In this document: positions 29,897-55,321 of the stretch, in pieces | How the letters are laid out: every line of letters starts with the position of its first letter | Numbering within the stretch: position 1 is the stretch's first letter | DNA from: Nitrosophilus labii | GTDB taxonomy: Bacteria; Campylobacterota; Campylobacteria; Campylobacterales; Nitratiruptoraceae | Reading direction: 5' to 3' | Length of the DNA stretch: 64,000 nt | Assembly (NCBI RefSeq): GCF_014466985.1 | Contig: NZ_AP022826.1 | Coordinates: forward strand, 496,001-560,000 | Notes under the pieces: generated by a model | Databases searched by the model: none | The model's input: the letters and a program-made list of their open reading frames with translations, nothing else | Told to the model about the DNA's origin: nothing | Translations under genes and position numbers: made by a program

Positions 29897-29961
29897 ATTT
29901 TTCCTTGATATTTGTTTTATTTATATTATAGTAATAATTGTTCTAAAAATATTACATAAAC

Positions 29962-31601: not shown

Positions 31602-31629
31602 TGTCCAATTCCAAAAAGGTCTAAAATCA

Positions 31630-31845
31630 TAAATTGAGTGTTCTGAATAAATAGCAAATTTCGCTCAAGCGAGTTATCATTTTTGCTTTTGGCAACGCTT
31701 AAAAATTTTATTAAAAAGTGCGAACGCAAGCGCCCCTTCGGGGTTAAGCGTACTTTTTTGCTCTTATGACCAACATAAAATTTTCAAGCTAAAATGATAA
31801 AGCTTTCGCTCAATTTCTATTTATTCAGAGGTTTCAATTAGTTGT
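31630..31845. repeat. dispersed palindromic repeat, copy B
   Basis: About 215 bp between narK-type and kinase genes, both on the minus strand. It shares TTCGCTCAAGCGAGTT, ATTAAAAAGT and AACATAAAATTTTCAAGC with copies A and C. Near its centre CCCCTTCGGGG forms a very stable UUCG-type hairpin. Outer arms (CTGAATAAATAG and CTATTTATTCAG) pair perfectly. Confidence 0.82.
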
Positions 31846-31858
31846 TTATATCAAATCT

Positions 31859-33136
31859 CTAAATCCTTCCCCCAGCTTGTAATCCCCAAGTTGTTCTCCA
31901 TCTAGTCTTAACCAAACTTATGCCGATTATTGCTAATATCACTATTGTTGCAAATATAAAAAAGCCTGTATTGTAGCTATTAAAGGCCGCTTTGCTCCAT
32001 CCTAACGTCTTAACTAGAGCTGTCCCTCCAAGTCCTCCGGCACATCCGACTATGCCCGTCATTATACCCATATCTTTACCAAATCTTTGCGGAACAAGTT
32101 GGAAAACGGCTCCGTTTGCCATCCCTAAAAATGCCATAATAGTAAAAAGTACTATAATGGCTATATAGAAATTGCTAACGATAGTTGCGTTTAATATCGC
32201 CATAGCCGCTACTATTCCGTAAAATATATATAGCGATTTTACCCCGCCCATTTTATCGGCGATTGCGCCTCCAACAGGTCTTAGTATCGCTCCTGCAAAT
32301 ATACAAAGAGCTCCAAAATATCCGGCTACTACTTTTACGTTCGACTCGCTTAAGATTTTTAGCCCTATTTCGGCCATTTCCGGTTTGTAAACATCCATCA
32401 AATATACTTTCATATAGTTTGCAAATCCTACGAAACCGCCAAAACTTACTGCATAAAAGAGACTAAACCACCAAGTATCTTTATCTTTTAAAAGTTTTAG
32501 ATAATCACTCGGTTTTTTCTTTCTGGGAGTATAGATCTCCGGCGGCGCGTCCTTTGCCATCAATATATAGGTTATTAAGATAATCGTCGATAAAACGCCT
32601 CCAACCAAAAATACTGAAGGCCATCCCCAAATTTCCGCAATTTTTGGTGCAAATATATAGTCTATCACCACACCGATATTTCCCGCACCGGCAAGTCCCA
32701 AAACTAAGCCTTGTAAACGAGGTGGATACCACTGTCCGGCTTGAGGAAGAGCTACCGCAAAACTAGCTCCGGCAAATCCTAAACCGAAAGCGACGGCTAG
32801 TAATTCTTGATAGGTAATGTTTTCGCCTCTAAAAAAGGTATAAAAGAGTGAAACTATCACTATTGATTGGGCTATTATTGCGGTTTTTTTTGCTCCAATA
32901 TTGTCAACAAAAAAACCTAACAAAATTCTAAGGATGGCTCCTCCCAATATAGGAATCGCAAGTAGTGTTGCCTTTTGGTTTGGATCTAGTATAAAACCTT
33001 GTTTTGCTAAAGATTCGGCTATTTCGTTAGCAAGAGGTCCAAGCATAGTCCAAACCATAAAACTAAAATCAAAATATAAAAAAGCAGCGATTAGCGTGGG
33101 TAGATGACCCGCACTCTTTAATTCACCCAGCTTCAT
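31859..33136 (-). CDS. narK: NarK/NasA-type nitrate/nitrite MFS transporter
   Basis: 425 residues (ATG 33136; ATG 33139 is also possible, GGAG upstream) with twelve predicted membrane segments. The first MFS loop motif reads FFVDNIGAKKTA, and GGFVGFANYMKVYL plus the glycine-rich GIVGCAGGLGG match nitrate-porter signatures. It imports nitrate to the cytosolic reductase. Divergent from amt; both share a 300-bp regulatory gap. Confidence 0.88.
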   Translation of the reverse strand: MKLGELKSAGHLPTLIAAFLYFDFSFMVWTMLGPLANEIAESLAKQGFILDPNQKATLLAIPILGGAILRILLGFFVDNIGAKKTAIIAQSIVIVSLFYTFFRGENITYQELLAVAFGLGFAGASFAVALPQAGQWYPPRLQGLVLGLAGAGNIGVVIDYIFAPKIAEIWGWPSVFLVGGVLSTIILITYILMAKDAPPEIYTPRKKKPSDYLKLLKDKDTWWFSLFYAVSFGGFVGFANYMKVYLMDVYKPEMAEIGLKILSESNVKVVAGYFGALCIFAGAILRPVGGAIADKMGGVKSLYIFYGIVAAMAILNATIVSNFYIAIIVLFTIMAFLGMANGAVFQLVPQRFGKDMGIMTGIVGCAGGLGGTALVKTLGWSKAAFNSYNTGFFIFATIVILAIIGISLVKTRWRTTWGLQAGGRI

Positions 33137-33202
33137 CATTTCTCCTTGTTTTTTTGATTGTAAAATTATAACAGCTATTTATTTATAAAATATACAGAAA
33201 AA

Positions 33203-36475: not shown

Positions 36476-36486
36476 TTTTCGCCCTT
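36463..36486. terminator. bidirectional hairpin at converging ends of amt and RND pump genes
   Basis: AAGGGCGA (36463-36470) pairs perfectly with TCGCCCTT (36479-36486) across an 8-nt loop. It spans the amt stop codon and the end of the RND gene, a common arrangement for a two-way terminator. Confidence 0.55.
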
Positions 36487-39400
36487 ATCTTCTTATATCT
36501 TCAATTATTATATACAATGATGGTACTAAAATAAGAGTTATAAATGTAGCAAACAAGATTCCAAATCCTAGTGAAATAGCCATAGGGATCAAAAATTTTG
36601 CCTGTCTAGATGTTTCAAAAATCATAGGCATTAATCCGGCAAAAGTTGTAAGTGTAGTTAAAAAGACTGGCCTAAATCTTTGAATAGCCGCTTCTTTAGC
36701 GGTTTTTAAGGCGCTAAAACCAAATTTTTCTCTATATTCGTTAGCAAATTTGATCATTATCAAAGAGTCGTTTACTACTATCCCAGAAAGCGCGATTATT
36801 CCAAATAGGCTTATTACGCTAAGGCTATAGCCCATCAAAAGATGTCCTAAAATGGCTCCGATGATCCCAAAAGGGATACTTATCATCACTATAAATGGTT
36901 GAATGTAACTTTTAAAAGGTATTGCTAAAAGTAGATAGATAACGGCTAATGAGATTATAAAACTAAATTTGAGACTAGATAGATTTTCTCTCATCTCAGT
37001 CTGCCTTCCTTCAAAGCTGTAATTGATACTTGGGAACTCTTTTTTTATCTCTTTTAAGACGCTATCTTGCAAATCGTTTAAAACTTCCAAAGCTTTACTT
37101 CTTGGCCTAATATCCGCTTCAACTGTAACTACTCTTTTGCCGTCTTTTCGTATTATTTCCATTGGAGAGTAGTTCCATCTTATATCTATGAGATTTAAAA
37201 GAGGAACTTCGTTTCCATCTTTGGTAGTTAGATACATATTGTCAAAATAGTAAAGAAGTTTTCTCTCTTTTAGAGGAGTTTTAGCCATAATTTTTACTTC
37301 GTCGGCTCCTACGATAATCCTTTGAGCCTCATAACCGTAAAATCTTCCTCTTATCTCTCTCGCTATAGTTTGAGCGTCAAAGCCCAAAATATAGGCCAAC
37401 GGTTTTAAAACAAATCTTATCTCCTCTTTTGAGCTGGATATCCCTGCGTCTATATTGAAAACACCGGGATAGTTTTTTAAGCTTTGAGCCACCATTTGAG
37501 CCGTTTTTTTGAGCACGTTCTCATCAAAGTGGCTAAGTTCTACGGCAATCGGAGAGCCGTGAGCGCCTACCGAAGCGCTGGAGAAAAATTGCAAAGTTTC
37601 TACTCCTTCGATTTTTCCTGTCCTTTTTCTCCACTTTTTACCAAATTCTAAAGTGGACATTATCTCTTTTCTAATATCCGGATCGGCAAGATATACTCTA
37701 ACTTCCGCACTATTAGCTCCTCCTCTTCCGACTCTAGCGTAGATTCCTTTGACTAGTTCATCTCCTCTATCTATACTCTTTTTAAGTTCTTGAGCGCTCT
37801 TTATGAGCTTTAAAACCGCCTCTTTGGTTTTTTCTACGTCGCTACCAGCTGGAAGTCTTATATATGCTCTAACATAGTCCGCTTCGGTGTCCGGAAATAA
37901 CTGCATTCCCATTCTACCGCTTAGAGCGTAAGAGAGGGCAAGAACAAATAGAGACAAAAACAGCACTATCGTTGCGTATCTGTGACGTAAAACCAGATTT
38001 AAAAATTTCCCAAAACTAAATCTAACCCATCTTCTAAAAGCTTTTGAAAATCTTTTTTGAAAGCTTAATTTCTCTTTTTTGACTGAGTATGTTAAGTGCG
38101 ACGGTAAAATAAATATAGATTCAAGCCAAGATATAACGAAAACGGCCGTTACCACAAGAGGAATAGCTTCAAAAATCTTTCCTGTTACTCCCGGCACGAA
38201 AAGTATCGGCATAAATGCTACTATATTGGTCAAGATACTAAAGGATACCGGTACCGCCATCTCTTTAGCGCCAAGCACCGAAGCGTTTAGAGGTTTGCAG
38301 CCTCTTTCTCTATATTTATAGATATTTTCGCCTACCACTATCGCATCGTCAACTACGATACCTAACGCAATAATAAATGCAAACAAAGAGATCATACTAA
38401 TGGATATGTCTAAGATAGGAAAGAGTAAAAAAGAGCCCAAAAAGGAGATTGGTATCCCCATCATAACCCAAAAAGCAAGCCTAGGTTCTAAAAATAAAGA
38501 CAAGGTTATGAGTACCAACACTAGTCCAAGAGCGGCGTTTTTTAAAAGTAGCTTTACCCTATCTTCAAAAACGTCCGCACCGCTTGATAATACCTCTAAG
38601 TTAAGATTTGGAGGCAAAAACTCTTTTGCCGTTTGTAGTTTTTCATCTACTATTTTTGAGATCTCTATAGGTGAGAAACTTTGCGGATTTCTTACCTCCA
38701 TCCTGATTGCAGGCTTTCCGTTATAAAACGCAAAATAGTCTTCGTCTTCAAAGACCTCTTCGATTTTAGCAATATCTTTTAGTTTGACTATTTTGCCCTC
38801 TTTTGTGGTGATGATAGGGATATTTTCAAAATCTATAGGCTTTTCTCCCCTTTGGGAGAGTTTTAGTATCACCTCTCCCCTAGGCGTTTTAACTACTCCC
38901 GAAGATAACTCAAGAGAGTTGGCTCTAACTATATCGCTTATATCTTTCGTACTTAGTCCATATTTTCTTAAAATATCGTTTTTTATCTCTATGCTTATTT
39001 GAAGAGGAGATAGACCGTAAATATCGATTTTGGATATTTTTGGATTAGATAGAAGATGGTATTTTACTTTTAGGGCGTATTTGTATAAAGAGACCCGATC
39101 GCTTTTGCCGTATAGTATCAAAGAGATTGTTCTTCTTTCGTAGCTTCTTTTAGTGATTATCGGTTTTTCCGCCTCTTTTGGAAAAGTTCTTATCCTAAAG
39201 ATAGCGTTTTCTATATCGTTTTGCAAAGTCTGTAAATCATATCCTCTAAAAGCTTCAACGTCTACCGTTGCGCTTCCCTCTCTTGCTACCGCTCTAAATC
39301 TTTTGATCCCTTCTACCGAGCTTATAGCTTCTTCGATAGGCAAAATTATCGCTTTTTCTATTTCGGTGGGTGATGCTTGAGGATAGGAGACTCTTATGCG

Positions 39401-39556
39401 AACTTCGTCTCTTTCGTAATCAGGAAAAACCTCCTGTTTTACGTAATTTAACATAAAAATCCCGCCCGCTAACAAAAAGATCATTAAAAGATTTGCTACT
39501 ACTGGATTTTTTACCATCCAACTGATTGGAGTGTTAAAATCGGCCCTACATCTCAT
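36485..39556 (-). CDS. RND-family efflux pump inner-membrane subunit
   Basis: 1023 residues of the AcrB/MexB-like HAE class: one membrane segment, a large periplasmic loop, a cluster of six segments, and the same again. The proton-relay aspartates lie in GIVVDDAIVVGENIY (about 390-405), and a second repeat GIVVNDSLIMIKFAN is near the C-terminus. It has no CusA-type methionine series that I can see, so organic or mixed substrates are as likely as metal. Last gene of a nine-gene minus-strand operon; its start overlaps the adaptor gene by 11 bp. Confidence 0.93.
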   Translation of the reverse strand: MRCRADFNTPISWMVKNPVVANLLMIFLLAGGIFMLNYVKQEVFPDYERDEVRIRVSYPQASPTEIEKAIILPIEEAISSVEGIKRFRAVAREGSATVDVEAFRGYDLQTLQNDIENAIFRIRTFPKEAEKPIITKRSYERRTISLILYGKSDRVSLYKYALKVKYHLLSNPKISKIDIYGLSPLQISIEIKNDILRKYGLSTKDISDIVRANSLELSSGVVKTPRGEVILKLSQRGEKPIDFENIPIITTKEGKIVKLKDIAKIEEVFEDEDYFAFYNGKPAIRMEVRNPQSFSPIEISKIVDEKLQTAKEFLPPNLNLEVLSSGADVFEDRVKLLLKNAALGLVLVLITLSLFLEPRLAFWVMMGIPISFLGSFLLFPILDISISMISLFAFIIALGIVVDDAIVVGENIYKYRERGCKPLNASVLGAKEMAVPVSFSILTNIVAFMPILFVPGVTGKIFEAIPLVVTAVFVISWLESIFILPSHLTYSVKKEKLSFQKRFSKAFRRWVRFSFGKFLNLVLRHRYATIVLFLSLFVLALSYALSGRMGMQLFPDTEADYVRAYIRLPAGSDVEKTKEAVLKLIKSAQELKKSIDRGDELVKGIYARVGRGGANSAEVRVYLADPDIRKEIMSTLEFGKKWRKRTGKIEGVETLQFFSSASVGAHGSPIAVELSHFDENVLKKTAQMVAQSLKNYPGVFNIDAGISSSKEEIRFVLKPLAYILGFDAQTIAREIRGRFYGYEAQRIIVGADEVKIMAKTPLKERKLLYYFDNMYLTTKDGNEVPLLNLIDIRWNYSPMEIIRKDGKRVVTVEADIRPRSKALEVLNDLQDSVLKEIKKEFPSINYSFEGRQTEMRENLSSLKFSFIISLAVIYLLLAIPFKSYIQPFIVMISIPFGIIGAILGHLLMGYSLSVISLFGIIALSGIVVNDSLIMIKFANEYREKFGFSALKTAKEAAIQRFRPVFLTTLTTFAGLMPMIFETSRQAKFLIPMAISLGFGILFATFITLILVPSLYIIIEDIRR

Positions 39557-40661
39557 CTTTAGCCTTTGAGACTCGAACTTTCATATTTTCAAAAATGGTA
39601 CTAAGATTGCTGATAACTACGTCATATCCTTTGAGATTATCGGCGCTTATGTAGGCGAACTCTTTATCCTCCCAAAGAGGCTCTTTTTGGATGATGTGTA
39701 GTCGGTTATCTTTGACGATCCAGATTTTATTGTTGGCTCTAATGGCGTATCTTGGGATTTTTGCTACGTTTTTGACTTTTTTGCCTACAATGTGGGTTTT
39801 TAGAAAATCGTTTAAAAATATCTCTCTTTTTAGCGGATCTTTTAAAAGGAAGATAAGTTTAGCTAGTTTACTAGTATCGTCTAGATCTTTTTTTATAGTA
39901 AACAAAGAGGCTTTTGTTTTGTTTTTAATTAAAACGTATGAGTTTTGATCTAAATATTTTAGTTTTTTTGGCTCTATTAGTGTTTTTATTAAAAATCTAT
40001 CAGCCCTAGCGGTTTTTAAAAGAGTTTTGGAAGGAGAAACCACGTCTTTTAAAGCTACGAAACTATCTAGTACGATTAGATCGAACGGAGCTTTTATATC
40101 GCATCTTTTTATTTGAAGAAGGGTTAGCTCAAGATCGGCTTTAGCGGCTTTAAGCTGCGCTTTAGCATCTTCTATGTAAGGGATTCTTAAGACAAACTCT
40201 TTATCCTCTTTGGTTATGTTTCCCTCAAAATATCTAAACTCCTCTTTTGCTCTTTTTTGTTTTTGAATCTCTTCAACTAAATTTAGTTTTGCCCTTTTTA
40301 ACGCGGCCTCCTTTTTCTCAATTTCTAGTAAAAAGTCGCTTTTATCCAGTTTTATGAGAAGCTCGCCTTTTTTTATTAGAGCTCCTTGAACTATTTTTGG
40401 ATTTATCCAGATCACTTCTGAAGAGACTCTGGGCTTTATCTCTAAAACTCTAAAAGGGGTGACTTTTGATAGCTGAAATTGACTAAAATGAAAATCTCCT
40501 ATAAGAGGTTTTTGAACTTTTACCATAGGAGCCCATCTTTTATGATGAGCTTTTTTGTGCATTTTAGGTTTATGCGTTAGCCACTGATAGGATTGATACA
40601 AAGATATTGCAAATAGTGTTGCCACAGCCAAGTAAAAGAGTAGTTTAATAATCTTTTTCAA
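39546..40661 (-). CDS. RND periplasmic adaptor (HlyD/MFP family)
   Basis: 371 residues with an N-terminal membrane anchor (about 6-24) followed by a basic, histidine-rich patch (HKPKMHKKAHHKRW, about 31-44). Lipoyl-type and hairpin domains surround a coiled coil (about 100-170). This is the MFP partner of the pump next to it. The His/Met-rich patch just outside the membrane is unusual for the family and might bind metal, which is inference. Confidence 0.88.
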   Translation of the reverse strand: MKKIIKLLFYLAVATLFAISLYQSYQWLTHKPKMHKKAHHKRWAPMVKVQKPLIGDFHFSQFQLSKVTPFRVLEIKPRVSSEVIWINPKIVQGALIKKGELLIKLDKSDFLLEIEKKEAALKRAKLNLVEEIQKQKRAKEEFRYFEGNITKEDKEFVLRIPYIEDAKAQLKAAKADLELTLLQIKRCDIKAPFDLIVLDSFVALKDVVSPSKTLLKTARADRFLIKTLIEPKKLKYLDQNSYVLIKNKTKASLFTIKKDLDDTSKLAKLIFLLKDPLKREIFLNDFLKTHIVGKKVKNVAKIPRYAIRANNKIWIVKDNRLHIIQKEPLWEDKEFAYISADNLKGYDVVISNLSTIFENMKVRVSKAKDEM

Positions 40662-41980
40662 CTTTCATCCTTTTGCCAACCTGATGTAGTAGCTTTGTAA
40701 AAATCGACTATCAAAAGTAGAAGATCTCTTTTTGCTTTTAATATACTATTTAGATCATCTATCACTCTTATCTCATAATCGACAAGATTATACAAGCTGC
40801 TCTCTCCCGCTAAATATGCCTTCTTTTCAACTTTTAGTTCTCTTTTATCGTTTTGGATCTTTTGATTTAGATAATATAGGTATCTTTTTTGATCTTCAAT
40901 CTTTTTTCTAATCTCCGCCGCCTCTTTCGTAGCCTCTAGAAGCGCTTGTTTATATTGATATAGCAGCTGTTTAGTTTTGTGCTCCGCGGCTTTTGCCGCG
41001 CTTTTTTTAGCCTCTTTATCAAAAATGATAGCGTTTATCGCCGCAGAAGCGCTTAAAAACCAGTTATCAAAAAGTTTGGATATGTTTTTTATATCAGAAC
41101 TTATGGATGAGGTGATAGAAAAAGATGGATACTGCTCTTTTATAGCCGCGCCGTAGGCGTAATCTTGCGAAATCAGCCTTAGGTATAGTGACTTAATATC
41201 CGGTCTTTGGGCTATTTGTGATACGCTAATATCCGGGATTTTTATATCCGTTTTTAAGAAATCGGCTTTGACGAAGAGGCTATCTTCTATATCTTTAGAT
41301 AGCAACGTTTTTAAAGAGTTTAGATAGATATTTTGATAAATCTTTGTAATTTTTAGTCTATATTCAATATCTTCAAGAGCTGTTTTTTGATTGAAAATTT
41401 GCGAAATCTTAGCCTCTTTACTAATATAGTTTCTTTTTAAGAAATCGAGTTTTTTTAAAGCTAGCTCTCTTTTTTTTACCAAAAGTTTTTCATTCTCTTT
41501 TTCGTAGCCTAAATAGATATAGTTTTTTGCTATTTCGCTGCTTATTAAGATCTTTGCGCTTTTAAGATCCTCTTTTGTAGATTTGAAACTAAACAGGTTC
41601 TTTTTTGTCTTATCTGAGAGTTTTTTGAAAAGATCTAATTCATATTTGAAAGTTATAGAACCTTCTAAATTTTCATCAATAAAGCTTTCGTTATCTTTAT
41701 AATAGTTACTCTTTATTGAGGCGCTTACGGATGGATAGAGCGAAGATAGAGAATTTTTATACAGATATCTATACTCTTTTATTTTTTCCGTATAATATTT
41801 TATATCGTAACTATTTTTAAGAGAGGCCAAGATAATAGCGTTTAACTCCTCATTTTTAAAAACTCTCCACCACTTTTGGGGACGCTCTTTTTGTTGTGTA
41901 TATTTTGGGATATCGATTTTTTGTTTTTCTACGTAACATCCGTTTAATATTAGAGCAATAATAGGCCAAAGATACCTCAT
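40658..41980 (-). CDS. outer-membrane efflux lipoprotein (TolC/NodT-like)
   Basis: 440 residues. The signal peptide ends in a lipobox LNGC (cysteine about residue 15). The mature part contains two repeats of long helices and strands typical of outer-membrane factors (IKYYTEKIKEYRYLYKNS; a C-terminal copy with YLAGESSLYNLVDYE). Together with the adaptor and pump it completes a tripartite exporter. Overlaps its neighbours by 4 bp on both sides. Confidence 0.87.
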   Translation of the reverse strand: MRYLWPIIALILNGCYVEKQKIDIPKYTQQKERPQKWWRVFKNEELNAIILASLKNSYDIKYYTEKIKEYRYLYKNSLSSLYPSVSASIKSNYYKDNESFIDENLEGSITFKYELDLFKKLSDKTKKNLFSFKSTKEDLKSAKILISSEIAKNYIYLGYEKENEKLLVKKRELALKKLDFLKRNYISKEAKISQIFNQKTALEDIEYRLKITKIYQNIYLNSLKTLLSKDIEDSLFVKADFLKTDIKIPDISVSQIAQRPDIKSLYLRLISQDYAYGAAIKEQYPSFSITSSISSDIKNISKLFDNWFLSASAAINAIIFDKEAKKSAAKAAEHKTKQLLYQYKQALLEATKEAAEIRKKIEDQKRYLYYLNQKIQNDKRELKVEKKAYLAGESSLYNLVDYEIRVIDDLNSILKAKRDLLLLIVDFYKATTSGWQKDES

Positions 41981-42774
41981 AGCTCTTCATACGCCTCTTT
42001 TGCCAAAATAGCCGCGCCTAATGCAGTAGTGATTTGCGGATTTTTTGGAATGGCGAGCCTTCTTCCAAGCTCAAACTCTATAGCCTCTACCAAGCCTTTA
42101 TTGAGAGCAGGCCCTCCGTCAAAATATATAACGTCGTTAAGTCCAACTTTTTTTGCGAGTCTAATAATTCTTTTTGCGATGGAGTAGTGGATACCGGTTA
42201 CGATATCTTCCACCTTATGTTCGTTTCCTAGTAAAGAGATGATTTCAGACTCTGCAAAAACGGCGCAAGTACTGTTAATAGGAAGGGGAGTGCCTCTTGA
42301 TTTGAAGTGATACTCCCCAAGCTCTTCCACGCCGATTTCAAGTTTTGCGGCGGCTACATCTAAAAATTTACCTGTACCTGCCGCACATCTGTCGTTCATA
42401 GCAAAATTTACCACGTTTCCTTCCTCATCCAGCGAAATCGCCTTTGAGTCTTGTCCGCCTAGATTTATAATGGTCCTAATCGTTCCAAACTCTTTGCCGG
42501 CATATCTCGCTCCTATGGCGTTTGCCGTGATTTCGCTAATGGTTTCGTCCGCTTCTTTAAAAAGCTTTCTTCCATATCCGGTAGAAACTATATATTTTAG
42601 ATTCTCTTTTTTTAAATCGACCTCTTTTAGTAAAAGTTCTAGATTCTCTTTTGCGTATTTATAAAACATACTACCGCTACCGGCTATTTTTGAGCCTAAA
42701 ATCTCAAGTTCTTCGTTTATTATAACAATTTTTATAGCGGTTGAGCCAATGTCGATCCCGGCAAAACAGTTCAT
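41977..42774 (-). CDS. BadF/HgdC-type ATPase, activator (reductase) of a double-cubane or 2-hydroxyacyl-CoA dehydratase-type protein
   Basis: 265 residues of the ASKHA fold. GIDIGSTAIKIVI is phosphate loop 1; CAAGTGKFLDVAA (about 130) and the second cysteine in NSTCAVFAESE (about 168) are the pair that bind one [4Fe-4S] between two subunits. Family members hydrolyse ATP to fire a low-potential electron into their partner, here the adjacent gene with which it overlaps by 4 bp. The pair HgdC-type plus a single HgdB/DCCP-type protein, without a second dehydratase subunit, resembles the double-cubane-cluster protein systems. Confidence 0.9.
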   Translation of the reverse strand: MNCFAGIDIGSTAIKIVIINEELEILGSKIAGSGSMFYKYAKENLELLLKEVDLKKENLKYIVSTGYGRKLFKEADETISEITANAIGARYAGKEFGTIRTIINLGGQDSKAISLDEEGNVVNFAMNDRCAAGTGKFLDVAAAKLEIGVEELGEYHFKSRGTPLPINSTCAVFAESEIISLLGNEHKVEDIVTGIHYSIAKRIIRLAKKVGLNDVIYFDGGPALNKGLVEAIEFELGRRLAIPKNPQITTALGAAILAKEAYEEL

Positions 42775-44051
42775 CGTTTTTTTCTCCTCCTAACTTTTAA
42801 AGATTCTATAAAGGCTTCTATTCTAGTTGAGAGCTGTCCGCCTTGAGCAGGACTATAATCGGACTCAACGTATAGCATTGGGATCCCTAGACTCTCCATC
42901 TCTTTGGCTATACTTCTTTGCTCCATCTCGTAAACTTGACAACCTGCAAAAGATTGATAAACCACTCCTTCTACCTCGTAATCTATGATCAACTCTTTGA
43001 GTCTTCTTTTTCTATCTTCGTTTTGCGTAAAGATGGGGCAAGTACACCCTTTGAGATATCGATCCGCGATTGAATCGACCATATCGTACATAAACCACTC
43101 ATCAACCGAAACCATATCGTTTAATAGCCTATTTGCCGAACAGCTCTCATCGGCTACTATAATGCCGTCGGCTAGCTCTATCATCATAGGAAGCTTTAGA
43201 TTTGGAAATATGGGAGGAGAGCCGGTATAAAGAATTCTTGGAGATCTTTTTCCGGCCGGGTTATATTTGGCTTTTGCCTTCTCTTTTACCTCTTTATAAA
43301 CTCTTTTAACCGCCTCCGTCCATTTTTCGATATCGTCAAAAAAGAAGGCGTTGGTTATGAGAAACATATCTTTGCCAAGAATCGGAGAGGGTTTTAGTTT
43401 TCTAAGTTCGTTTAAGTCGTGGTATATTTTTTGAGCTTTACCCACTTTTTTGATCGACTCTTTCACCTTTTTTCTGTTGATCTTGACTCCTAGCTCTTTT
43501 TGGAGATCTTTAGTAAATTTTCTAATAGTTCTTCGCCAATACTCTCTGCTCTCTTCGCTCTCTTTTACTCTTGGAAACTCTAGATGATACATCTCATAAC
43601 CCATATCTTCTATCATCGATATGGCTTTGGTTTTTTGATCACAAGTTGTAGGATGTATGACAAGATCTAGTTTTTGTGCGGCCGGGATATCTTTATTGGA
43701 AAGCATTCCAAGAGTCGCTTTTACCAAAGAGCAGGATTTTGTAGGCATAAACTCTCCGCCAAGCTGTTCGTCGGTATAAAAACCGTTACACAATCTAACG
43801 GGTACCGCATCGGCGGCATAGATGATTTCGTAGGGAACCTGTATGCACATAGTTCCTACTGTAGGCTTATCAAAATGTAGTTTTTCTCCCTTACAGTAGA
43901 TTTTTTCGTATAAATCGTAAAAATAGCTCATAGATTCTAGATTATCTTTAAAATCGTTTTTAAGAGAGTCTAAAATCTTTACCGCCTCCATAGCCTCGTG
44001 GCGTCTATGTCTTGTTTTTGGATCTTCCATTTTTCTTAATCTATTTGTCAT
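42771..44051 (-). CDS. 2-hydroxyacyl-CoA dehydratase D-type / double-cubane-cluster protein (DCCP)-like
   Basis: About 426 residues from the ATG at 44051, chosen because it leaves an 11-bp overlap like its neighbours; the ATG at 44075 is the alternative. Cysteines stand at 53, 69, 88, 107 and 137 and later in DESCSANR, LKGCTCPIF and SFAGCQVYE, the pattern of the HgdB/FldB/DCCP fold. Only one such subunit is encoded, whereas true dehydratases need two, and DCCPs are single-type proteins that carry an [8Fe-9S] cluster and reduce small molecules with ATP. The substrate is unknown. It lies between two membrane polyferredoxins and an RND pump. Confidence 0.85.
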   Translation of the reverse strand: MTNRLRKMEDPKTRHRRHEAMEAVKILDSLKNDFKDNLESMSYFYDLYEKIYCKGEKLHFDKPTVGTMCIQVPYEIIYAADAVPVRLCNGFYTDEQLGGEFMPTKSCSLVKATLGMLSNKDIPAAQKLDLVIHPTTCDQKTKAISMIEDMGYEMYHLEFPRVKESEESREYWRRTIRKFTKDLQKELGVKINRKKVKESIKKVGKAQKIYHDLNELRKLKPSPILGKDMFLITNAFFFDDIEKWTEAVKRVYKEVKEKAKAKYNPAGKRSPRILYTGSPPIFPNLKLPMMIELADGIIVADESCSANRLLNDMVSVDEWFMYDMVDSIADRYLKGCTCPIFTQNEDRKRRLKELIIDYEVEGVVYQSFAGCQVYEMEQRSIAKEMESLGIPMLYVESDYSPAQGGQLSTRIEAFIESLKVRRRKKR

Positions 44052-45006
44052 CTTCAAACCCCATTCTTTTTGCAAATCCGCCTTTTGTAGATTTAAATAT
44101 AGTCCATTTTACTATATCTACTTTTAAGGCGTCCTCTTCGGGACACGCTCCAACGCACTTTAAACAGAAAATACAGTCGTCTCTTAAAATATTTTTACTT
44201 GTGACGTCATCTGCTATATCTTTGATCTGCATATCGCATACCCTATAACAATCACCGCATTTAGTACATTTTAAACCATCTTTTTTTAGCCTCAAAAGCG
44301 CAAAGGGGCTAAAAATGTAGTGCATAGCGCTCATAGGACAAAAAAAACAAAAAAACCTCTTTTTGATAAAAGAGCCGACAAAAAACAGAATAGTAAAAGT
44401 TATACCAAAAGCGGTTAAAAACATTGCAGTTTTTGATGAAAAATCTATATACCATTGGCTAAAATCTCCAACAAACATAGGAGTAATGACTCTTCCGGGA
44501 CACATTTTACAAAATGCGGCTCTCCACTCTCCGCTTAGCAGTCCAGCTCCTATCATAAGAGGAAATATTACTACAATTACCAAAAAGATATATTTTATCT
44601 TTTTTAGTTTCTCAAATTGACTTTGCGTATAAGTAGAGTAGGGGATCTTGAAAAATTTACGTAAAGATGTGATCCAATCTTGCATAGTCCCAAGGGGACA
44701 GATATATCCGCACCAGGCTTTATTGAAAATGATAAACCAGGCCAAAAAGGTTAAAAACCCGGTTAAAACTCCAATACTGGCCATACTAAAGAGTCTATCC
44801 CATCCTCTTGCAAGTTGATGTTGCAGAGGCATAAAGTAGCACATCCCTCCGTTTTCATCGTTATAACCGCAAGAAAACATCGGCATTTCTCTTCCAAGAT
44901 CGATAGCTAGATATCCGCCGTATATAAAAATGACAAAGAAAAAGAGCTGTATCCAAAACCTAAATTTTCTTATATCTATTTTGTTGATTTTATCTCTAAT
45001 CTTCAT
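44041..45006 (-). CDS. NapH/NosR/CcoG-like membrane polyferredoxin
   Basis: 321 residues with about five membrane segments and a C-terminal pair of [4Fe-4S] motifs facing the cytoplasm: CTKCGDCYRVCD and CIFCLKCVGACP. Two further CP motifs in the membrane part (CGYICPLGT and CFFCPMSAM) are typical of NapH/NosR/CcoG proteins that relay electrons through the membrane. Overlaps the next gene by 11 bp. No napG or nosZ is nearby, so it should not be called part of those systems. Confidence 0.85.
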   Translation of the reverse strand: MKIRDKINKIDIRKFRFWIQLFFFVIFIYGGYLAIDLGREMPMFSCGYNDENGGMCYFMPLQHQLARGWDRLFSMASIGVLTGFLTFLAWFIIFNKAWCGYICPLGTMQDWITSLRKFFKIPYSTYTQSQFEKLKKIKYIFLVIVVIFPLMIGAGLLSGEWRAAFCKMCPGRVITPMFVGDFSQWYIDFSSKTAMFLTAFGITFTILFFVGSFIKKRFFCFFCPMSAMHYIFSPFALLRLKKDGLKCTKCGDCYRVCDMQIKDIADDVTSKNILRDDCIFCLKCVGACPEEDALKVDIVKWTIFKSTKGGFAKRMGFEDDK

Positions 45007-47293
45007 CTATTCTTACCTCTTTAAATGGTTTTTGCGTTTTAAGTCTGTAAAAAAGGATCCCTGCGCTTATAGCTAAAAGGAGTATGATAGAGATCAACAG
45101 CGCGTATGCGTATGATTGAAACTCGTTTCTATTAGGAGAGTATGTGCCGTAATATGTGGCTTCATATACGTTCTCATCCTTTTCATACTTTGTCGTTACC
45201 AAAAACTTTTCTCTATATCTTTTGTTATACTTTTCGATAGGAGGGTAGTAATCTTTTATAAGTTTAATAGAGGCGATCCCTTTGTCGTTTGTAAACAGAC
45301 TTTTTTGCCATCCAAACTCAGTTTTTAAGGTGACTATTGCATTTTTTAGAGGTTTGCTGTCAAAAAGCACCAAAAATCTTAACTCTTCCCCGGTGGTAAG
45401 TCTTGAGTAGAATGTTTCGTTGTCGTTTCTGAGTCTTAAGATATCTATAGGTATAGATTTGTTAGTTTTGGGAGCCATTTTGTTTTTATCGTAAACCGCG
45501 TGTTCGGAGTGGTCAAATCTTTTAAACTCAAATTTAGCTACTTTTATGTAGTTTTTGTTATCTCCTTTAAACTCTCCTACGTAGTATAGAGTGTAATATC
45601 CGCTCTTTGGCATCTTGTAAGTTAGACTTAAACAGCCTCTTTTTTTTGGATGTAGGCGTTGTGTCTTAGCGTCAGCGTCTATTAGGAGAAATTTTCCTTC
45701 TATTTTAGTTACGCATTTTGGAGAGTCTAGTTCGCCGCTAACGATATAGACTCTCTTTTTAGGTACTTCTGTTGGCACTCTTCTAACATAGGCTCTTCTT
45801 TTCCCAAGTCTATCGGTTAACCAGATGGTATCTTTGTAGGTTGGGACAATCTTTTGGATATTTTGACTTTTTTGTTTCATATAAGTTGCTACGTTTTGAT
45901 GATTGTGTCCTCTTGGCTTTCTACCGTAAGTATCTATTACGTAATCTCTATATAGATTTACCGAGATAAAAAAGATTATCAGTAAAGAGGCAAAAGGAAA
46001 AGCCAACAATTTTCTCGTCTTAGTAGATTCAATCAGCTCAAATCTTCTATATAAGATATAAAATGCCCATATAACGCCTATCCATCTAAAAAGGTGAAAA
46101 ATCGCCAACCATTTATCTCCTCTTTTAGCCAAAGGCTCAACGTCTAGGGAAAAGCCAAAACCCCAAGCAAAACCCTCTACAATTCTTTCATAGTTTCCGG
46201 TAAAGAAAAACTCTAGCGCGTGTCCCATAGAGGCTAGTATAAAAAGAGGGGCAAAAGCGTAGCCTAGCGTATAAAAAGTGGTCGAAAAATCTTTTTTTAA
46301 GATTTTCGATGCTATCCACATCCCGATAACGGCGGCCAAAATCGTAAACAAAGTAGCGTATAAAAATGCGAACATTCCTACGGCGTCAGCACCTCCGAAA
46401 TCTATAAACTTTTTAAAAAATTGAGCCGTTTTGTACCAGATAAACTCTTGAGCTATGTTGCTTCTTCCAAGTCCATGATGAAAAGCCATAGATATAGGAA
46501 TAGCGGCTAAGATAAGTATATATACCCAAACTTCCGCTTTTAAGATTTTGAACTTTTTATATAGAGAAAAACCGGGTTTTGTGAAGCGAAAATTGATAGC
46601 CGCGCAAGATTTCGTACACTCCATACACAAAGTACAATCGCTCATAGAGTTTTTTTTGTTGAAGTTAAACGGGCTTAGTCCATACGGGCAGCTTTTGGCG
46701 CAATCAAAAGTTTTACACTCTTTGCAGGCTTCCTGGTATGAGCCAAACCAAGTAAAAGAGAGTTTAGAGTAGGCTCTAAGAGCGGTACCTATGGGACAGA
46801 TATATTTACAATAACTCATATCTTTATAGAGATAGTAAAACAAAAAGGCTACAACCGTCATCACCGCAAAGAGGATTGCACTTCCAAGAGGGGTTCTGTA
46901 GACTCCAGGAAATATATAGTAAACTCCCCACCATCCTAAAAATAGAAGCATTATACCTATGTATCTATTTTCAAGCCAAGAGGGCATTCTCTTTTTTAAT
47001 CCAAAATCGGTGATATATTTACCTAAAAAGCCGTGAGGGCATATACCGCAAAAGATTCTTCCAAAAGTTGGAAGTGTGGTTACTATAAAAAGCGGCCAAA
47101 ATATCCCCCAAAATACTGCTCGCGTAAAGCTGTTCTCTTTTGTAGGCTCCACAAATCCTAGATAGATTGCGTAAAAAAAGATAAAGAGTGCCAAAATCCT
47201 TACGGTAAAAATAAACTTTTCGTTTTTAAAGATAGTTTTTAAGATAGGTATTCGAAATATATCGTTTGTAGCTCTTTTTATGTATCTTACCAT
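44996..47293 (-). CDS. large membrane polyferredoxin with C-terminal periplasmic domain
   Basis: 765 residues. The N-terminal half (about 1-440) has about ten membrane segments, CP motifs CGICPHG and CKYICPIGT, a cluster motif CKECKTFDCAKSCPYG (about 185-200) and CTLCMECTKSCA (about 215-226). Residues about 450-725 form a periplasmic region with a beta-rich domain (GEELRFLVLFDSKPLKNA then TNDKGIASIKL) resembling DUF4198-type domains found near metal-uptake genes, followed by a last membrane segment (about 733-753). It probably moves electrons between the cytoplasm and a periplasmic substrate. Gap to the SafE-like gene is 10 bp. Confidence 0.8.
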   Translation of the reverse strand: MVRYIKRATNDIFRIPILKTIFKNEKFIFTVRILALFIFFYAIYLGFVEPTKENSFTRAVFWGIFWPLFIVTTLPTFGRIFCGICPHGFLGKYITDFGLKKRMPSWLENRYIGIMLLFLGWWGVYYIFPGVYRTPLGSAILFAVMTVVAFLFYYLYKDMSYCKYICPIGTALRAYSKLSFTWFGSYQEACKECKTFDCAKSCPYGLSPFNFNKKNSMSDCTLCMECTKSCAAINFRFTKPGFSLYKKFKILKAEVWVYILILAAIPISMAFHHGLGRSNIAQEFIWYKTAQFFKKFIDFGGADAVGMFAFLYATLFTILAAVIGMWIASKILKKDFSTTFYTLGYAFAPLFILASMGHALEFFFTGNYERIVEGFAWGFGFSLDVEPLAKRGDKWLAIFHLFRWIGVIWAFYILYRRFELIESTKTRKLLAFPFASLLIIFFISVNLYRDYVIDTYGRKPRGHNHQNVATYMKQKSQNIQKIVPTYKDTIWLTDRLGKRRAYVRRVPTEVPKKRVYIVSGELDSPKCVTKIEGKFLLIDADAKTQRLHPKKRGCLSLTYKMPKSGYYTLYYVGEFKGDNKNYIKVAKFEFKRFDHSEHAVYDKNKMAPKTNKSIPIDILRLRNDNETFYSRLTTGEELRFLVLFDSKPLKNAIVTLKTEFGWQKSLFTNDKGIASIKLIKDYYPPIEKYNKRYREKFLVTTKYEKDENVYEATYYGTYSPNRNEFQSYAYALLISIILLLAISAGILFYRLKTQKPFKEVRIDED

Positions 47294-47303
47294 TATCTAT
47301 CCT

Positions 47304-47951
47304 TTATAGTTTTATGTTGCCAGTCAATATAAAAAGACCGGTTGTAAAAAGTAAAAGAGCCGAGGCTATCTGGATACTTTTTTTATAGCGAGCAAACTGC
47401 AAAAGCAACTCTTTTATGATGGGTGATAGGAAAAGTCCGTAAAATAGTAGTGTAAACAGTACTGCACCAATACCAAAAAGTAGTCCGTATATCAAAGCCA
47501 ATATTGGTGAAGAACTGTTTGCACTAAAAGCGATTAGTGCTAAGTTGGGCGCGCATAGGTTAAATGAGAACAAAAAACCTAGTAAAAAGTAGTTACTATT
47601 TTTGACGGTTCTAACTTTGCATGAGCTAGCGCAATTTCGGCTAAAGAGAATATCGTAAAAGATCTTAAATGATAAAAAAACCACCGTTAACCCGGTTAAA
47701 ATCTGCCATATCTGGTTACTGTTTAATAAGTTTTTTAAACTTTGAGAAAAGAAAAAGGCTAAAAAAGAGATAGTAACATACGTTAAGACTCTTCCCAAAC
47801 TAAAAAAGGTTACAATCTTTAAAGAGGTGGTTATAGTTGAAGAGTTTATTACTAATATAGGAGTTAGAAGGGGAGCGCAAGAGAGAAAGCATAGAGACAA
47901 TCCGTAAGAAAGCCCCGTAATAAAGATGGTTATAAACGCTCCCGCTTCCAT
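47304..47951 (-). CDS. CcdA/SafE-like polytopic membrane protein
   Basis: 215 residues with six membrane segments. Cysteines in LSCAPLLTP (segment 1) and NLCAPNLAL (segment 4) sit where CcdA/DsbD transmembrane domains keep their redox pair, and CASSC lies in the intervening loop. The family (DsbD-like or sulfite-exporter TauE/SafE in databases) carries reducing power or small substrates across the membrane. Between a TonB receptor and a polyferredoxin, thiol or metal reduction is a plausible role. Confidence 0.75.
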   Translation of the reverse strand: MEAGAFITIFITGLSYGLSLCFLSCAPLLTPILVINSSTITTSLKIVTFFSLGRVLTYVTISFLAFFFSQSLKNLLNSNQIWQILTGLTVVFLSFKIFYDILFSRNCASSCKVRTVKNSNYFLLGFLFSFNLCAPNLALIAFSANSSSPILALIYGLLFGIGAVLFTLLFYGLFLSPIIKELLLQFARYKKSIQIASALLLFTTGLFILTGNIKL

Positions 47952-47960
47952 TTTTAACCT

Positions 47961-50142
47961 TTAAAAAGAGTATTTTATACCAGCATAATAAACCCTACCT
48001 GGATCTACAGTAATACTTGCGTCTTCTGCATCAAGTTTTCCGTCTCCACTTCTATCACTAAATAGATAGACGGTTCTATAGTATTGGTTATCGGTAACGT
48101 TATCAATGCGTACGAAAAACTCTAGATCCTTTCCTCTTAATTTGGTATTGTATCTAGCTTGAATGTTTAGAACTCCGTATGACGGCATCTTTACGAAATT
48201 TGTCTCATCTGAGTAATAGCTTGATTGCCAGTACCACTCGTTGATCAGTTTCCATTTAGGAGTTAATTTGATATAGGTGAAAAGATCAAATTTATGATGA
48301 GGAGTTCTAGGTAGTTGATTGCCGTTAATTTCATAAGTCTGATCTCCCGTAGATCTATAAGTGGGTGCTAAATCGACTGTGAACGGAATATGAGAAGTAT
48401 AATAGGCGTCAAGATAGGTATATGAAAAGTCAAAGGCTAGTTTTTTGCTCTTATCGCTTCCCAAAGAGAGCTCTACACCTTTACTTCTAGCATCTCCTAC
48501 ATTATCAAAATATACGTTAGAACCGTAAGAGTAGTATGTTCCCCCGTTTCTAGCTATAATATCTTTAGTATCTAGGATATAAGCCGATATGTCGTATCTA
48601 AAGCTGTTGTTAAGAGCATACTTTTTACCTCTAAAACCTATTTCGTAATTTATAGTAGTTTCGGTATCGATATCTGGGTTGTTCGCCGTATATCTGTTGG
48701 GATTGAAATCTGCTGCGTAAAGCTCGTAAACTCTTGGATTTCTAAATCCGGTAGAGATGTTTGTGTAAAATGTATCGTTTGAGGTTAGTTGATAGGTAGC
48801 TCCTACTCTATAAGAGAAGTTTTCAAAACTGTGATCTCTATTTACATTGTTTAGACTCCATACAGTTCCGTTATAGTCGTAACTTTGCTCTTCATACTCA
48901 TACTCTTCTTTATCGTATCTAGCGTTGAAAACAGCTGTTAGTTTAGAGGTTATCTTATGCTTTGTTTCGCCGTAAATCCCTAGTCTATCTTCGATTGCAT
49001 TAGAGTCGCTCCACTCTCCTTTATAGTAAGTACCCCTTCTACTAGTATAAGTTACTGTAGTGATATCGTACTCTTTTAACTCTCTTTCTCCTACGTCTAA
49101 ACCTAATCATATAGGCTAGATTGCCGATAGTGTCTCTATACTCTGTTTTTAGCCCTTTTTGGTAGATATCTTCTGTACTATCTCTTGTGTAAGTATCTTC
49201 ATAACCGTCGCTGTTTAGATCTTGTGGAGAGGCTTCATAGTCGTATAGATCTACGTAGTAGTAAACATTTGCCAAAAGATTTGCACCATTATCGAAATCT
49301 TTGCTATAAGTTATAAAATATTTATCTATATCTGAGTAATAGTCGTGATTCCAAGGAAGATCCGGATCGCTAGCACCGGTAGGATCAGTTTTTGCCGTAG
49401 TTACTCCGGTTACACTACCTCTTGAGCTCTCTTCATATTTTCTTGTTATATCGGCACCGAAGGTGATTTCGCTCATATCGTCTATAAAGTATGTAAATTT
49501 TCCGCTGACTGATTTTGACCAGTTTTCGCTCATATCCCAGTATCCGTCGGTGTAACGGTAAGCGGCGATTATGTTTGCTAGGTATTTTTCGGTAGCTTTA
49601 TACGCTGAGGCTCTATAGTTTTGATAGCTGTAGCTTCCAAATTCGGCTTCTACTTTAACCATATCTTTGTTTTTAGGTTTTTTGGTTGTTATGATAACGG
49701 CTCCGGCAAGAGCGTTTGGTCCATATAGATAAGAGGCTCCCCCTTTTATCACTTTAATGCTTTCTATCTCATCTAAGTTAAATTTTACTTTCCCTCCGTT
49801 TTGTAAAACAGGAACTCCATCTATAACTATGGCAACTCCCGTATCTTCCCACATAAACTCTTGTTGAGCCACCCCTCTCATATGTATCTCTACTATGTCT
49901 CCTGCTCGAACATCAGCTGTGATACCAGGTATAGTTCGAAGGATCTCGTTTATGTTTTTTGGGTCGATTATCTCAATCTTTTTTTCATCGATGACATCCG
50001 TTTTTGAAACTTCCGTTTTTGGGTCGGTAAAAATATCTTCGATAGTAGAAGACTCTACGACTATATTATCTAAAGATAGCTCCTCAGCGCATATCAAAGA
50101 GGAAAAGAGCGCTACACCTAACAATAAAAAATTTTTTTTCAT
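47961..50142 (-). pseudogene. TonB-dependent outer-membrane receptor, interrupted by a frameshift
   Basis: Signal peptide (about 1-18), plug domain (DIVVESS TonB box-like N-terminus, RTIPGITADVR, VIDGVP, IKVIKGGASYLYGPNA) and barrel. The first frame runs from 50142 to about 49110 (LAYMI) and then gives a nonsense basic tail to 49042. The other frame is open without a stop from about 49107 down to 47961 and reads as barrel (GLDVGERELKEYDI, later TGFRNPRVYEL) to the final aromatic residue. One extra base in ATGATTAGG (49102-49110) explains it. The repaired protein would have about 726 residues. Possibly a real mutation or a sequencing error. Confidence 0.88.
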
Positions 50143-51982: not shown

Positions 51983-52990
51983 ATGCAAATAAAGCTAAAT
52001 TCTCCTCTTGATATGCATCTACATTTAAGAGACGGCGATATGTTAAAAACTGTAGCGCCTCTAAGCGCCAAAACATTTAGCGGCGCTATAATTATGCCCA
52101 ATCTCGTCCCACCAATAACGACTAAAGAGGCGCTTTTAAGCTATAAAGAGAGGATCTTAAAAGCTATAGGCAGAGAGAATTTTATACCCTATATGACACT
52201 CTTTTTTAAAACCGACTACGATTATGAGTTTTTAAAAGATATAAAAGATGAGATTTTAGCGATAAAGCTCTATCCTGCTGGGATTACAACAAACAGTGAA
52301 GATGGTGTGGATAATTTCAGTATAGATTCTTTAGCTCCTATTTTAGAGGCTATGAGCGAGCTTGGTATAGTTTTATGTGTTCACGGAGAGACGAACGGTT
52401 TTGTAATGGATAGAGAGGCTGAGTTTATCCCTATATACGAAAAAATCGCAAAAAGATTTCCCAAACTAAAGATTATCATGGAACATATAACCACAAAAGA
52501 GGCGGTAGAGGCTTTGGATAGGTACGAAAATCTTTACGCTACCATAACTCTACATCATCTTTTTATAACTTTGGACGATGTAGCAGGAGGTCTTTTGAGA
52601 CCACATCTGTTTTGTAAACCGATCGCCAAAAGACCCGAAGATAGAATGGCATTGAGGAAGGTGGCTTTTAGCGCTCATGAAAAGGTGATGTTCGGAAGCG
52701 ATTCCGCGCCTCACCCAAGAGACAAAAAAGAGGCTCCCGGATGTGCTGCCGGGGTATTTACGGCTCCCGTTGCTCTACCGGCTCTAGCGCAAATCTTTTA
52801 TGAAGCGGGAGCCATAGAAAATCTTCAAAAGTTTGTTAGCCAAAACGCTCAAAATATTTACGGCGTTACACCTCCTTTAAAAGAGGTGATTTTAGAAATG
52901 GAGAGTTTTGAAGTTCCTAAAGAATATAACGGCGTCGTACCTATGTTTGCAGGTGAGAGTTTAAGTTGGAGAGTAAAAGATGTCATTTAA
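51983..52990 (+). CDS. pyrC: dihydroorotase
   Basis: 335 residues, class II (PyrC) size. DMHLHLRDG gives the two metal histidines (about residues 11-13), [12 protein letters not shown] surrounds the carboxylated lysine (about 90), and HGE (about 130), MEHITT (about 165) and GSDSAPHP (about 237) supply the remaining ligands and the catalytic aspartate. It cyclises carbamoyl-aspartate in pyrimidine synthesis. AAAAGGA precedes the ATG. The end overlaps the response regulator by 11 bp. Confidence 0.95.
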
Positions 52991-53636
52991 AATACTTCTT
53001 TTGGAAGATGATAAACTTTTTGCCGAAACGATAGAGGATTTTTTAGAAGAGGAGAACTTTATCGTAAGTGTTGTGGATGACGCTAAAAAAGCGCTTAATA
53101 GGTGTTATAAAGGAAAATATGATCTATATATATTTGACGTAAAAGTTCCTTATATGAGCGGATTTGATCTTTTAAAAGAGTTAAGAAACTCCGGAGATGA
53201 TACTCCTACTATCTTTATAACTTCGCTAAAAGAGAAAGAGGATCTATCAGAAGGTTTTATGGCCGGAGCCGACGATTATCTAAAAAAACCGGTAGATCTT
53301 GAGGAACTTCTTTTTAGAATTAAAGCAATTCTTAAAAGAAGTGTTGGAGAAGAGCTTATCTCTTTTGGAGAGTTTAGATTTGATATGAAAAGAAAGATCT
53401 TAACGAAAAACGATAAAGAGATAGAGTTAAACCCAAAAGAGCTTGAACTATTGGCGCTTCTTTTAAAAAATAGAGGAAAAACCGTTACGAAAGAGATGAT
53501 TTTTGAAACTCTTTGGAATCCAGACGAGATTATAAGCGAAGGGGCATTAAGGGTGTATATAAACAACATTAAAAAAACTATAGGTAAAGAGTATATAACA
53601 AATATAAGAGGGGTTGGTTACAGATTTGAAAAATAG
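52980..53636 (+). CDS. OmpR-family response regulator
   Basis: 218 residues. The receiver domain has acidic residues ED at about 8-10, the phosphorylated Asp in [11 protein letters not shown] (about 51), and the conserved lysine in LKKPVD (about 102). A winged-helix DNA-binding domain follows (about 125-218; [10 protein letters not shown] and INNIKKTIG, ending in IRGVGYRF). It overlaps pyrC and the kinase, and stands at the head of the exbBD-tonB-nosL cluster, which it probably controls. Confidence 0.93.
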
Positions 53637-54471: not shown

Positions 54472-54522
54472 AATTAACATTTTTTTGTAAAAATTAGGTA
54501 ATTAAAAATTTAAAGGTTATGG

Positions 54523-55312: not shown

Positions 55313-55321
55313 AAGGGCAAA

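Follow-up and report, generated by a model that had tools for sequence, protein, structure and literature searches.

What task could join a TonB-dependent receptor, membrane polyferredoxins, an ATP-driven reductase and an efflux pump in one operon? We addressed this question for a locus of Nitrosophilus labii within a stretch of 64,000 nucleotides, hereafter the window. The combination of an uptake receptor, an ATP-driven reductase and a metal-binding domain suggests that imported metal complexes are unlocked through a reduction that the cell pays for with ATP.

Organization of the operon

All nine genes lie on the minus strand between 50142 and 36485; read in this direction, they are separated by gaps of 9 and 10 bp and then overlap by 11, 35, 4, 4, 4 and 11 bp. 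The first-pass annotation had claimed a same-strand operon of nine genes spaced by about 10 bp or overlapping, and both the coordinates and the families named by Pfam and NCBIfam profiles across the operon bear this out. The nine-gene operon is mobile. Its gene order is identical in a second locus (L093), and an empty site is found in the genomes G257 and G056, also within the same genus.

The double-cubane-type reductase (DCCP, HGD-D; 42771-44075, the start of which may instead be the ATG at 44051) exceeds the curated NF040772 cut-off (359.4 vs 350 bits), aligns with 7yyl and 6eno (E 1e-64, seven cysteines in common) and has C77, C96, C115, C145, C312, C344, C346 and C379 invariant in 81 sequences. 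It is followed by an ATP-dependent activase (DCCA/HgdC-like; 41977-42774), which lies well over the TIGR00241 cut-off (E 1.6e-70, 237 vs 125 bits), matches 4eht, 1hux and 7yyl_E, and carries invariant Cys130 and Cys170. The expectation of a single HgdB-type subunit with its own activase was confirmed, as DCCA adjoins in 57 of the 57 loci scored and the window genome holds one DCCP match. A 2-hydroxyacyl-CoA dehydratase or benzoyl-CoA reductase was rejected on the HadC (85 vs 700 bits) and BzdN (72 vs 454 bits) scores and on the single subunit. The physiological role of DCCPs has been described as unclear (PMC11971306).

The last three genes encode the outer-membrane factor (40658-41980; PF02321, TIGR01845), the periplasmic adaptor (39546-40661; TIGR01730, 2.2e-22) and the RND permease (36485-39556; PF00873, 1.8e-165) of an efflux pump. 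The TM4 motif of the permease, GIVVDDAIVVGEN, contains an Asp-Asp pair and is not the heavy-metal motif; we take it to be of the HAE-1 type.

Membrane electron carriers and the periplasmic domain

The DsbD_2/SafE-like membrane protein (47304-47951; PF13386, 1.5e-15), in which Cys 21, 25, 107 and 133 are invariant among 48 homologues, is a probable transmembrane thiol/electron carrier. The neighbouring 765-aa protein (44996-47293) had been labelled as a membrane polyferredoxin, and its N-terminal part indeed has Fer4_5 (1.1e-10), two [4Fe-4S] motifs and 14 invariant cysteines; the label, however, left undescribed that the protein is a fusion, in which a periplasmic domain of metal-binding type (residues 448-729 or thereabouts; 45107-45952) is followed by a membrane anchor and a cytoplasmic tail, KPFKE..DE, conserved also in stand-alone versions. 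The domain misses the Pfam gathering score of DUF4198 (PF10670, 1.6e-4; 22.3 vs 34 bits), and its sequence found nothing credible among PDB sequences, so that matches came from fold comparison alone: with Foldseek, the AlphaFold2 model (mean pLDDT 83.7) hit the Zcp structures 9mhl, 9mhm and 9mhn (Zn/Cu/Co; E 2e-10 to 4e-10) and the Ni-bound DUF4198 protein 9gcb (E 1.6e-6). By its predicted fold, the C-terminal half of this polyferredoxin matches a metal-binding-type domain. C527, C554 and H595 are invariant. The N-terminal histidine that DUF4198 proteins have after signal cleavage is not found here, the domain being fused behind a membrane part, and an HxH close to the domain start may replace it. 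Many relatives (the variants of 864-919 aa) carry an inserted NosL domain with CxxCGM and CSxHC, which is missing from the window protein. DUF4198 proteins are known for Ni binding and for a location near TonB receptors (PMC12537917), and secreted ones accompany PepSY-like membrane reductases linked to iron assimilation (PMC8238504).

The second, NapH-like polyferredoxin (44041-45006, 321 aa) was recognized by profiles and misses the NapH cut-offs (75.1 vs 234 and 72.7 vs 213 bits). It has three cytoplasmic [4Fe-4S] sites, C46, C56, C166 and C169 are predicted on the periplasmic side, and the cysteines of both sides are invariant across 79 sequences. Since its structural model is of modest confidence (pLDDT 72), the topology rests on hydropathy and charge; the model has no match in the PDB.

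Receptor and energizing proteins

The TonB-dependent receptor (47961-50142; plug PF07715, 1.9e-16; barrel PF00593, 1.5e-11) is not a single open frame in the window. It is split into pieces at 49042-50142 and 47961-48464, with the break placed near 49104 against the close relative L031, where the receptor is intact as one frame of 726 aa; the broken frame in the window genome counts against a working uptake model. The receptor stays under every curated receptor cut-off, and the siderophore receptor threshold of TIGR01783 (223.5 bits) is not reached by the L031 (141 bits) and L038 (216 bits) proteins either. By eye, the L031 receptor has no His between FRNP and NPDI, where the heme receptor motif would place one. 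ExbB (54523-54948), ExbD (54917-55312) and TonB (55322-56176), identified by Pfam on the plus strand outside the operon, are the probable energizers of the receptor; they are present also in the operon-less relative G257. The window genome encodes FeoB and lacks a FecCD-type permease, the sole match being a ZnuB-like ABC-3 permease. No Fur-like box was found upstream with the E. coli consensus; this search is uninformative, because the consensus finds nothing convincing at feoB of the same genome.

Conservation across genomes

Among 397 Campylobacterota genomes, a close DCCP homologue and the NapH-like polyferredoxin occur in the identical 27 genomes of 13 genera, and zero genomes have just one of them (shuffled-label chance about 1e-42, with kinship ignored). 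Another 42 genomes of this sample have only distant DCCPs (about 30% identity), all without the polyferredoxin. We further collected 58 loci from Campylobacterota, Methylococcales, Betaproteobacteria, Alphaproteobacteria and Bacteroidota; an annotated relative from a plasmid collection belongs to Sulfurovum mangrovi. The near-invariant core of these loci comprises DsbD_2 (43/45), the metal-binding anchor (anchor/Fer2, 50/50), the polyferredoxin (Fer321, 54/54), DCCP and the activase. Most of the operon is a conserved unit, and conservation of gene order across genera, the check set beforehand, came out strongly for this core. The receptor and the RND genes had been counted as members of the same set, which holds in part: a TonB-dependent receptor is usual (39/45), but its type differs by clade, and the RND genes are non-core, being found near 23 of 49 loci and belonging to two different types. 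ExbB/D and TonB accompany 20 of 41 and 17 of 40 loci, respectively.

Two variations of the core concern the role of DCCP. Some gammaproteobacteria have the DUF4198 anchor, the polyferredoxin and DsbD_2 without DCCP, with the invariant cysteines kept, and three Campylobacterota genomes (G138, G249 and G250) have two polyferredoxin sets beside a single DCCP.

Nitrogen fixation was considered as the purpose of the module and rejected. It is a correlate only: of the 27 genomes with the module, 14 have nifD, against 62 of the 370 others, and the gene is present in 11 of the 11 genomes whose best DCCP falls in a 55-60% identity group, while the window genome has no nifD and the genes are non-adjacent in the genomes inspected.

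Proposed mechanism and its alternatives

The operon could well be an ATP-boosted, TonB-linked reductase of metal chelates in the periplasm. The receptor, powered by TonB/ExbB/ExbD, would import a metal-ligand complex into the periplasm, where the membrane-anchored DUF4198/Zcp-like domain would hold the complex or the freed metal. The activase would spend ATP to push electrons onto the cytoplasmic double-cubane protein, which would pass them at low potential to the [4Fe-4S] clusters that the four-helix polyferredoxin has on its cytoplasmic side and, through this protein, over the membrane to the four-Cys periplasmic site; DsbD_2 would keep periplasmic thiols reduced or add electrons. Once reduced, the metal would lose its ligand and could enter via a general importer such as FeoB, and the RND pump, where present, would probably export the free ligand. 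The analysis shows the gene set, its conservation as a unit, the cysteine patterns, the metal-binding fold and the lack of a FecCD-type permease; we infer the direction of the electrons, the periplasmic site of reduction and the export of ligand, and the most likely route runs from DCCP through the polyferredoxin to the periplasm. Because there are loci without DCCP and loci with two polyferredoxin sets per DCCP, the role of terminal reductase seems to fall to the polyferredoxin, into which DCCP and activase would be plugged as an ATP-driven donor. We favour iron, as Fe(III) chelates, with copper as its main rival. Nickel, the best-tested metal of DUF4198, is not readily redox-active, which counts against the model, as do the receptor scores under all curated cut-offs and the finding that some half of the relatives have no RND genes nearby.

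The first-pass annotation had proposed that a single substrate, possibly a metal(loid) complex, is imported and then reduced through the polyferredoxins. The metal-binding fold gives this real support; reduction by DCCP in the cytoplasm, however, is less likely, because versions without DCCP exist and the operon has no inner-membrane importer. Such a scheme, in which DCCP would act on an organic or inorganic compound, the polyferredoxins would feed the activase and the pump would export the reduced product, agrees with the HAE-1-type motif, as in organic-compound exporters; it is rather unlikely, as the DCCP-less and the doubled polyferredoxin loci fit DCCP as donor and the membrane carrier is fused to a metal-binding domain. 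It is likewise unlikely that the locus serves copper acquisition, in which the CcoG/NosR-like polyferredoxins would reduce an imported copper complex and the NosL/Zcp-like domain would receive the resulting Cu(I), destined for cytochrome oxidase or N2O reductase. The NosL-bearing variants, the copper-bound structure of Zcp and two invariant residues at the apex of the receptor plug, Met97 and Glu99, speak for it, but the window protein has no NosL, Cu(II) can be reduced without an ATP-driven donor of low potential, and the copper-type receptor match of the genome (TIGR01778, 227 bits, under cut-off) falls on another gene.

One could argue that tetrapyrroles such as heme or corrinoids are reductively demetallated here in the manner of HmuS or CobN, as heme loses iron through HmuS (PMC12583661), CobN adjoins the module in six methanotroph and alphaproteobacterial loci, and ExbB-like and DUF2149 genes were confirmed in L039 and L042. 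With CobN in 6 of 45 loci overall and in zero Campylobacterota loci, we consider this very improbable. Finally, an efflux operon could merely lie beside a reductase operon, given the loci without RND genes and a distance of about 106 kb in G056. A loose neighbourhood of this kind is hardly to be expected where genes overlap, the nine-gene order is repeated in L093 and empty sites exist in G257 and G056; moreover, among 8 family genomes the RND orthologue (at least 64% identity) is limited to DCCP-bearing members, unlinked cases included.

Returning to the periplasmic chelate reductase, the fixed partner set of this DCCP subfamily points to a supply of low-potential electrons for the periplasmic reduction of TonB-imported metal complexes. 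We tentatively suggest that cytoplasmic ATP might, via the double-cubane protein, drive periplasmic reductions below the normal biological potential range and so strip metals from very tight chelates. If true, one DCCP family would gain a physiological role as part of a new kind of ATP-driven transmembrane reductase, metal acquisition would gain an ATP-driven step, and it would be explained how microaerobic chemolithotrophs and methanotrophs may access metals in very stable complexes.

Comparison with known systems

Our literature search found no paper joining DCCP, or its annotation names, with TonB or Sulfurimonas. The DCCP/DCCA pair (6ENO, 7YYL; YjiM/YjiL of E. coli) likewise has one HgdB-type subunit, an adjoining activase and the seven shared cysteines, but the window DCCP belongs to a separate subfamily (at least 50% identity) with a receptor, a polyferredoxin and a metal-binding anchor. 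With NapH, NosR and CcoG the window polyferredoxin shares the Fer4_5 architecture and cytoplasmic [4Fe-4S] pairs; it differs in scoring far under the NapH and NosR cut-offs, in its four invariant, predicted periplasmic cysteines and in being tied to DCCP by gene order. The same logic as proposed here is known from pyoverdine (FpvGHJK, PvdRT-OpmQ), which is imported by a receptor, reduced in the periplasm and its ligand recycled through a tripartite pump. However, the window has no homologous reductase and an RND instead of an ABC-type pump, and the pyoverdine system has no ATP-driven electron donor. The HmuS heme de-chelatase operon resembles some relatives of the window module in its TonB receptor, its ExbB-like/DUF2149 pair and the adjacent CobN, but hmu lacks DCCP and no CobN was found in the Campylobacterota loci (PMC12583661). 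The PepSY-DUF4198 clusters for extracytosolic iron reduction also pair a DUF4198-type secreted protein with an electron carrier in the membrane, to reduce metals for assimilation (PMC8238504); in the window operon, by contrast, PepSY is replaced by a NapH-like polyferredoxin, and a cytoplasmic donor driven by ATP is added.

Results

The nine-gene operon described in the first-pass annotation holds, with one defect in the receptor, and its gene naming is agreed by Pfam and NCBIfam. Every gene lies on the minus strand, from 50142 to 36485 (window G000:C1:496001-560000, of a 2.09 Mb, two-contig Campylobacterota genome), in the order TonB-dependent receptor (TBDR), DsbD_2, polyferredoxins 1 and 2, double-cubane-type reductase (DCCP), its activase (DCCA), outer-membrane factor, adaptor and RND pump. 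The first two junctions leave 9 and 10 bp between genes, and the six that follow are overlaps of 11, 35, 4, 4, 4 and 11 bp, the 35-bp overlap shrinking to 11 bp when the DCCP start is taken at ATG 44051. The receptor is split into two frames at about 49104 (49090-49110); its frame is whole in most relatives, including the close relative's locus L031 (726 aa), where the DCCP is 98% identical to the window's. The Sulfurovum mangrovi receptor (L089, ~10800-10870) is also broken, some 20-40 codons from the equivalent site. Such breaks may stem from an error in sequencing, from phage-driven loss or from phase variation.

Genes for a response regulator, a histidine kinase, ExbB, ExbD and TonB lie close to the operon start (52980-56176) and are present as well in G257, a genome of the same genus without the operon. 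The window also carries an assimilatory nitrate cluster (23860-33139) encoding NirA-like and NasC-like proteins, a DmsB-like Fe-S protein, a PP2C phosphatase/Ser-Thr kinase fusion (29976-31601) and a NarK-like transporter.

The same nine genes, in unchanged order, are found in G386 of the same genus (L093), flanked by an ammonium-transporter cluster and phosphomannomutase. These flanking genes adjoin each other directly in G257 (L094) and in G056 (L092); therefore, the operon was gained or lost as a block. G056 carries the first six genes at another site (L090) and an orthologous RND-adaptor-outer membrane factor set (L091; RND 64% identity) ~106 kb from them. When eight family genomes were searched with the window's RND, orthologues of at least 64% were found only in the three with the DCCP module, the remainder having paralogues of 24-29% only, or none at threshold.

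Of 397 Campylobacterota genomes, 27 carry a close DCCP homologue (at least 55%), and polyferredoxin 2 occurs in exactly those 27, one copy adjoining the DCCP. The next-best Campylobacterota DCCPs are only ~30% identical, and polyferredoxin 2 is absent from all 42 genomes having these alone. nifD was scored in all 11 genomes whose best DCCP falls in the 55-60% group (G115, G133, G138, G249, G250, G288, G291, G326, G361, G367 and G389; background 76/397), in G367 only through a weaker, nifD-related match; in the genomes inspected the genes are not neighbours.

A wider comparison, with a tree, covered 58 loci from named genomes of Campylobacterota, Methylococcales, Betaproteobacteria, Alphaproteobacteria and Bacteroidota. 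Besides the DCCP, the core comprises polyferredoxin 2 (Fer321, 54/54), DCCA (57/57), polyferredoxin 1 or its anchor (Fer2/anchor, 50/50) and DsbD_2 (43/45); the other counts are TBDR 39/45, RND 23/49, ExbB/D 20/41, TonB 17/40 and CobN 6/45. Receptor type varies from clade to clade, and the RND type varies too: some loci have a window-like pump together with its adaptor and outer-membrane factor, and many Sulfurimonas and Sulfurovum loci have a pump on its own. The electron core is therefore fixed, and the receptor and pump at its ends are interchangeable. The earlier interpretation, in which one substrate is imported, reduced through the polyferredoxins and its product exported, has partial support and can be sharpened.

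The DCCP shares seven Cys with 7yyl and 6eno in the alignment and has Cys that are invariant among 81 homologues; both cluster Cys of the activase are invariant. Hydropathy gives polyferredoxin 2 four helices and, combined with charge, places Cys 99/103/220/223 and two ferredoxin motifs on the predicted cytoplasmic side. The other set, Cys 46/56/166/169, does not vary among 79 sequences and is predicted to face outward; the structure model is of modest confidence. With Cys sets on both sides, the protein looks built for electron transfer across the membrane. DsbD_2 has four invariant Cys, two of them within repeated CAP motifs like those of thiol carriers.

Polyferredoxin 1 consists of a Fer4_5 part and a fused periplasmic domain, in which HxH is present and C527, C554 and H595 are invariant. 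The AlphaFold2 model of this domain is good (pLDDT 83.7); among solved structures it best matches the metal-binding protein Zcp in its zinc, copper or cobalt forms (E 2e-10 to 4e-10) and a DUF4198 protein with bound Ni (E 1.6e-6). Many relatives add a NosL copper-chaperone domain with CxxCGM and CSxHC; in variants of 864-919 aa (L038 6297-9050 and similar) this insert separates the DUF4198-like domain from the membrane part. Methanotrophs, Betaproteobacteria and Sulfuricurvum lack the Fer4_5 part; there the metal-binding domain is a protein of its own, which has a signal-like segment at the N-terminus, an anchor at the C-terminus and a similar tail (KPFKE..DE) in the cytoplasm. Therefore, the element common to all is the metal-binding anchor rather than a second polyferredoxin.

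Discussion

Three genomes (G138, G249, G250) have one DCCP and two copies of polyferredoxin 2, each copy at L098 lying behind its own receptor. In the gammaproteobacteria G457 and G437 (L114, L115) a polyferredoxin stands beside a DUF4198 anchor and DsbD_2, with a receptor too in L114, and neither locus has a DCCP or an activase. This polyferredoxin shares ~40% identity with its methanotroph counterpart (30% for L114 versus the window's protein) and retains the same Cys sets. Because of the two polyferredoxins per DCCP and these DCCP-less loci, the simplest reading of the gene content is that the polyferredoxin would be the periplasmic reductase, onto which DCCP and activase would have been added as an ATP-driven donor. 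By calculation, ATP-coupled enzymes related in kind to benzoyl-CoA reductase can go down to about -1 V (PMC11971306). The L114/L115 type, with its DUF4198 anchor, dual-sided polyferredoxin and DsbD_2, is perhaps an undescribed parent family of periplasmic reductases.

As to the substrate, the genome encodes FeoB but no FecCD-type permease, the sole match being a zinc ABC-3 permease, and therefore any ferric complex that this receptor imports would need opening while still in the periplasm. In other organisms, DUF4198 proteins are found with PepSY-like reductases linked to iron assimilation (PMC8238504) and close to TonB receptors (PMC12537917). This company and the permease gap favour a tightly complexed, redox-active metal. 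Iron would match the requirement for very low potentials. Copper is suggested by the NosL domain of the relatives, and tetrapyrroles by the HmuS precedent (PMC12583661) and by the six loci with CobN as a neighbour, which may point to tetrapyrrole demetallation. Receptor scores and promoter scans do not decide among the three. The CobN-type chelatase (L039, L042, L045, L046, L067, L071) has an ExbB-like gene alongside, with DUF2149 in L042, and its place beside the module is confined to methanotrophs and alphaproteobacteria.

In the literature searched we found no description of a double-cubane protein acting as ATP-driven donor to a periplasmic metal system linked to TonB, which is the function we infer for this operon; its parts are of known kinds.
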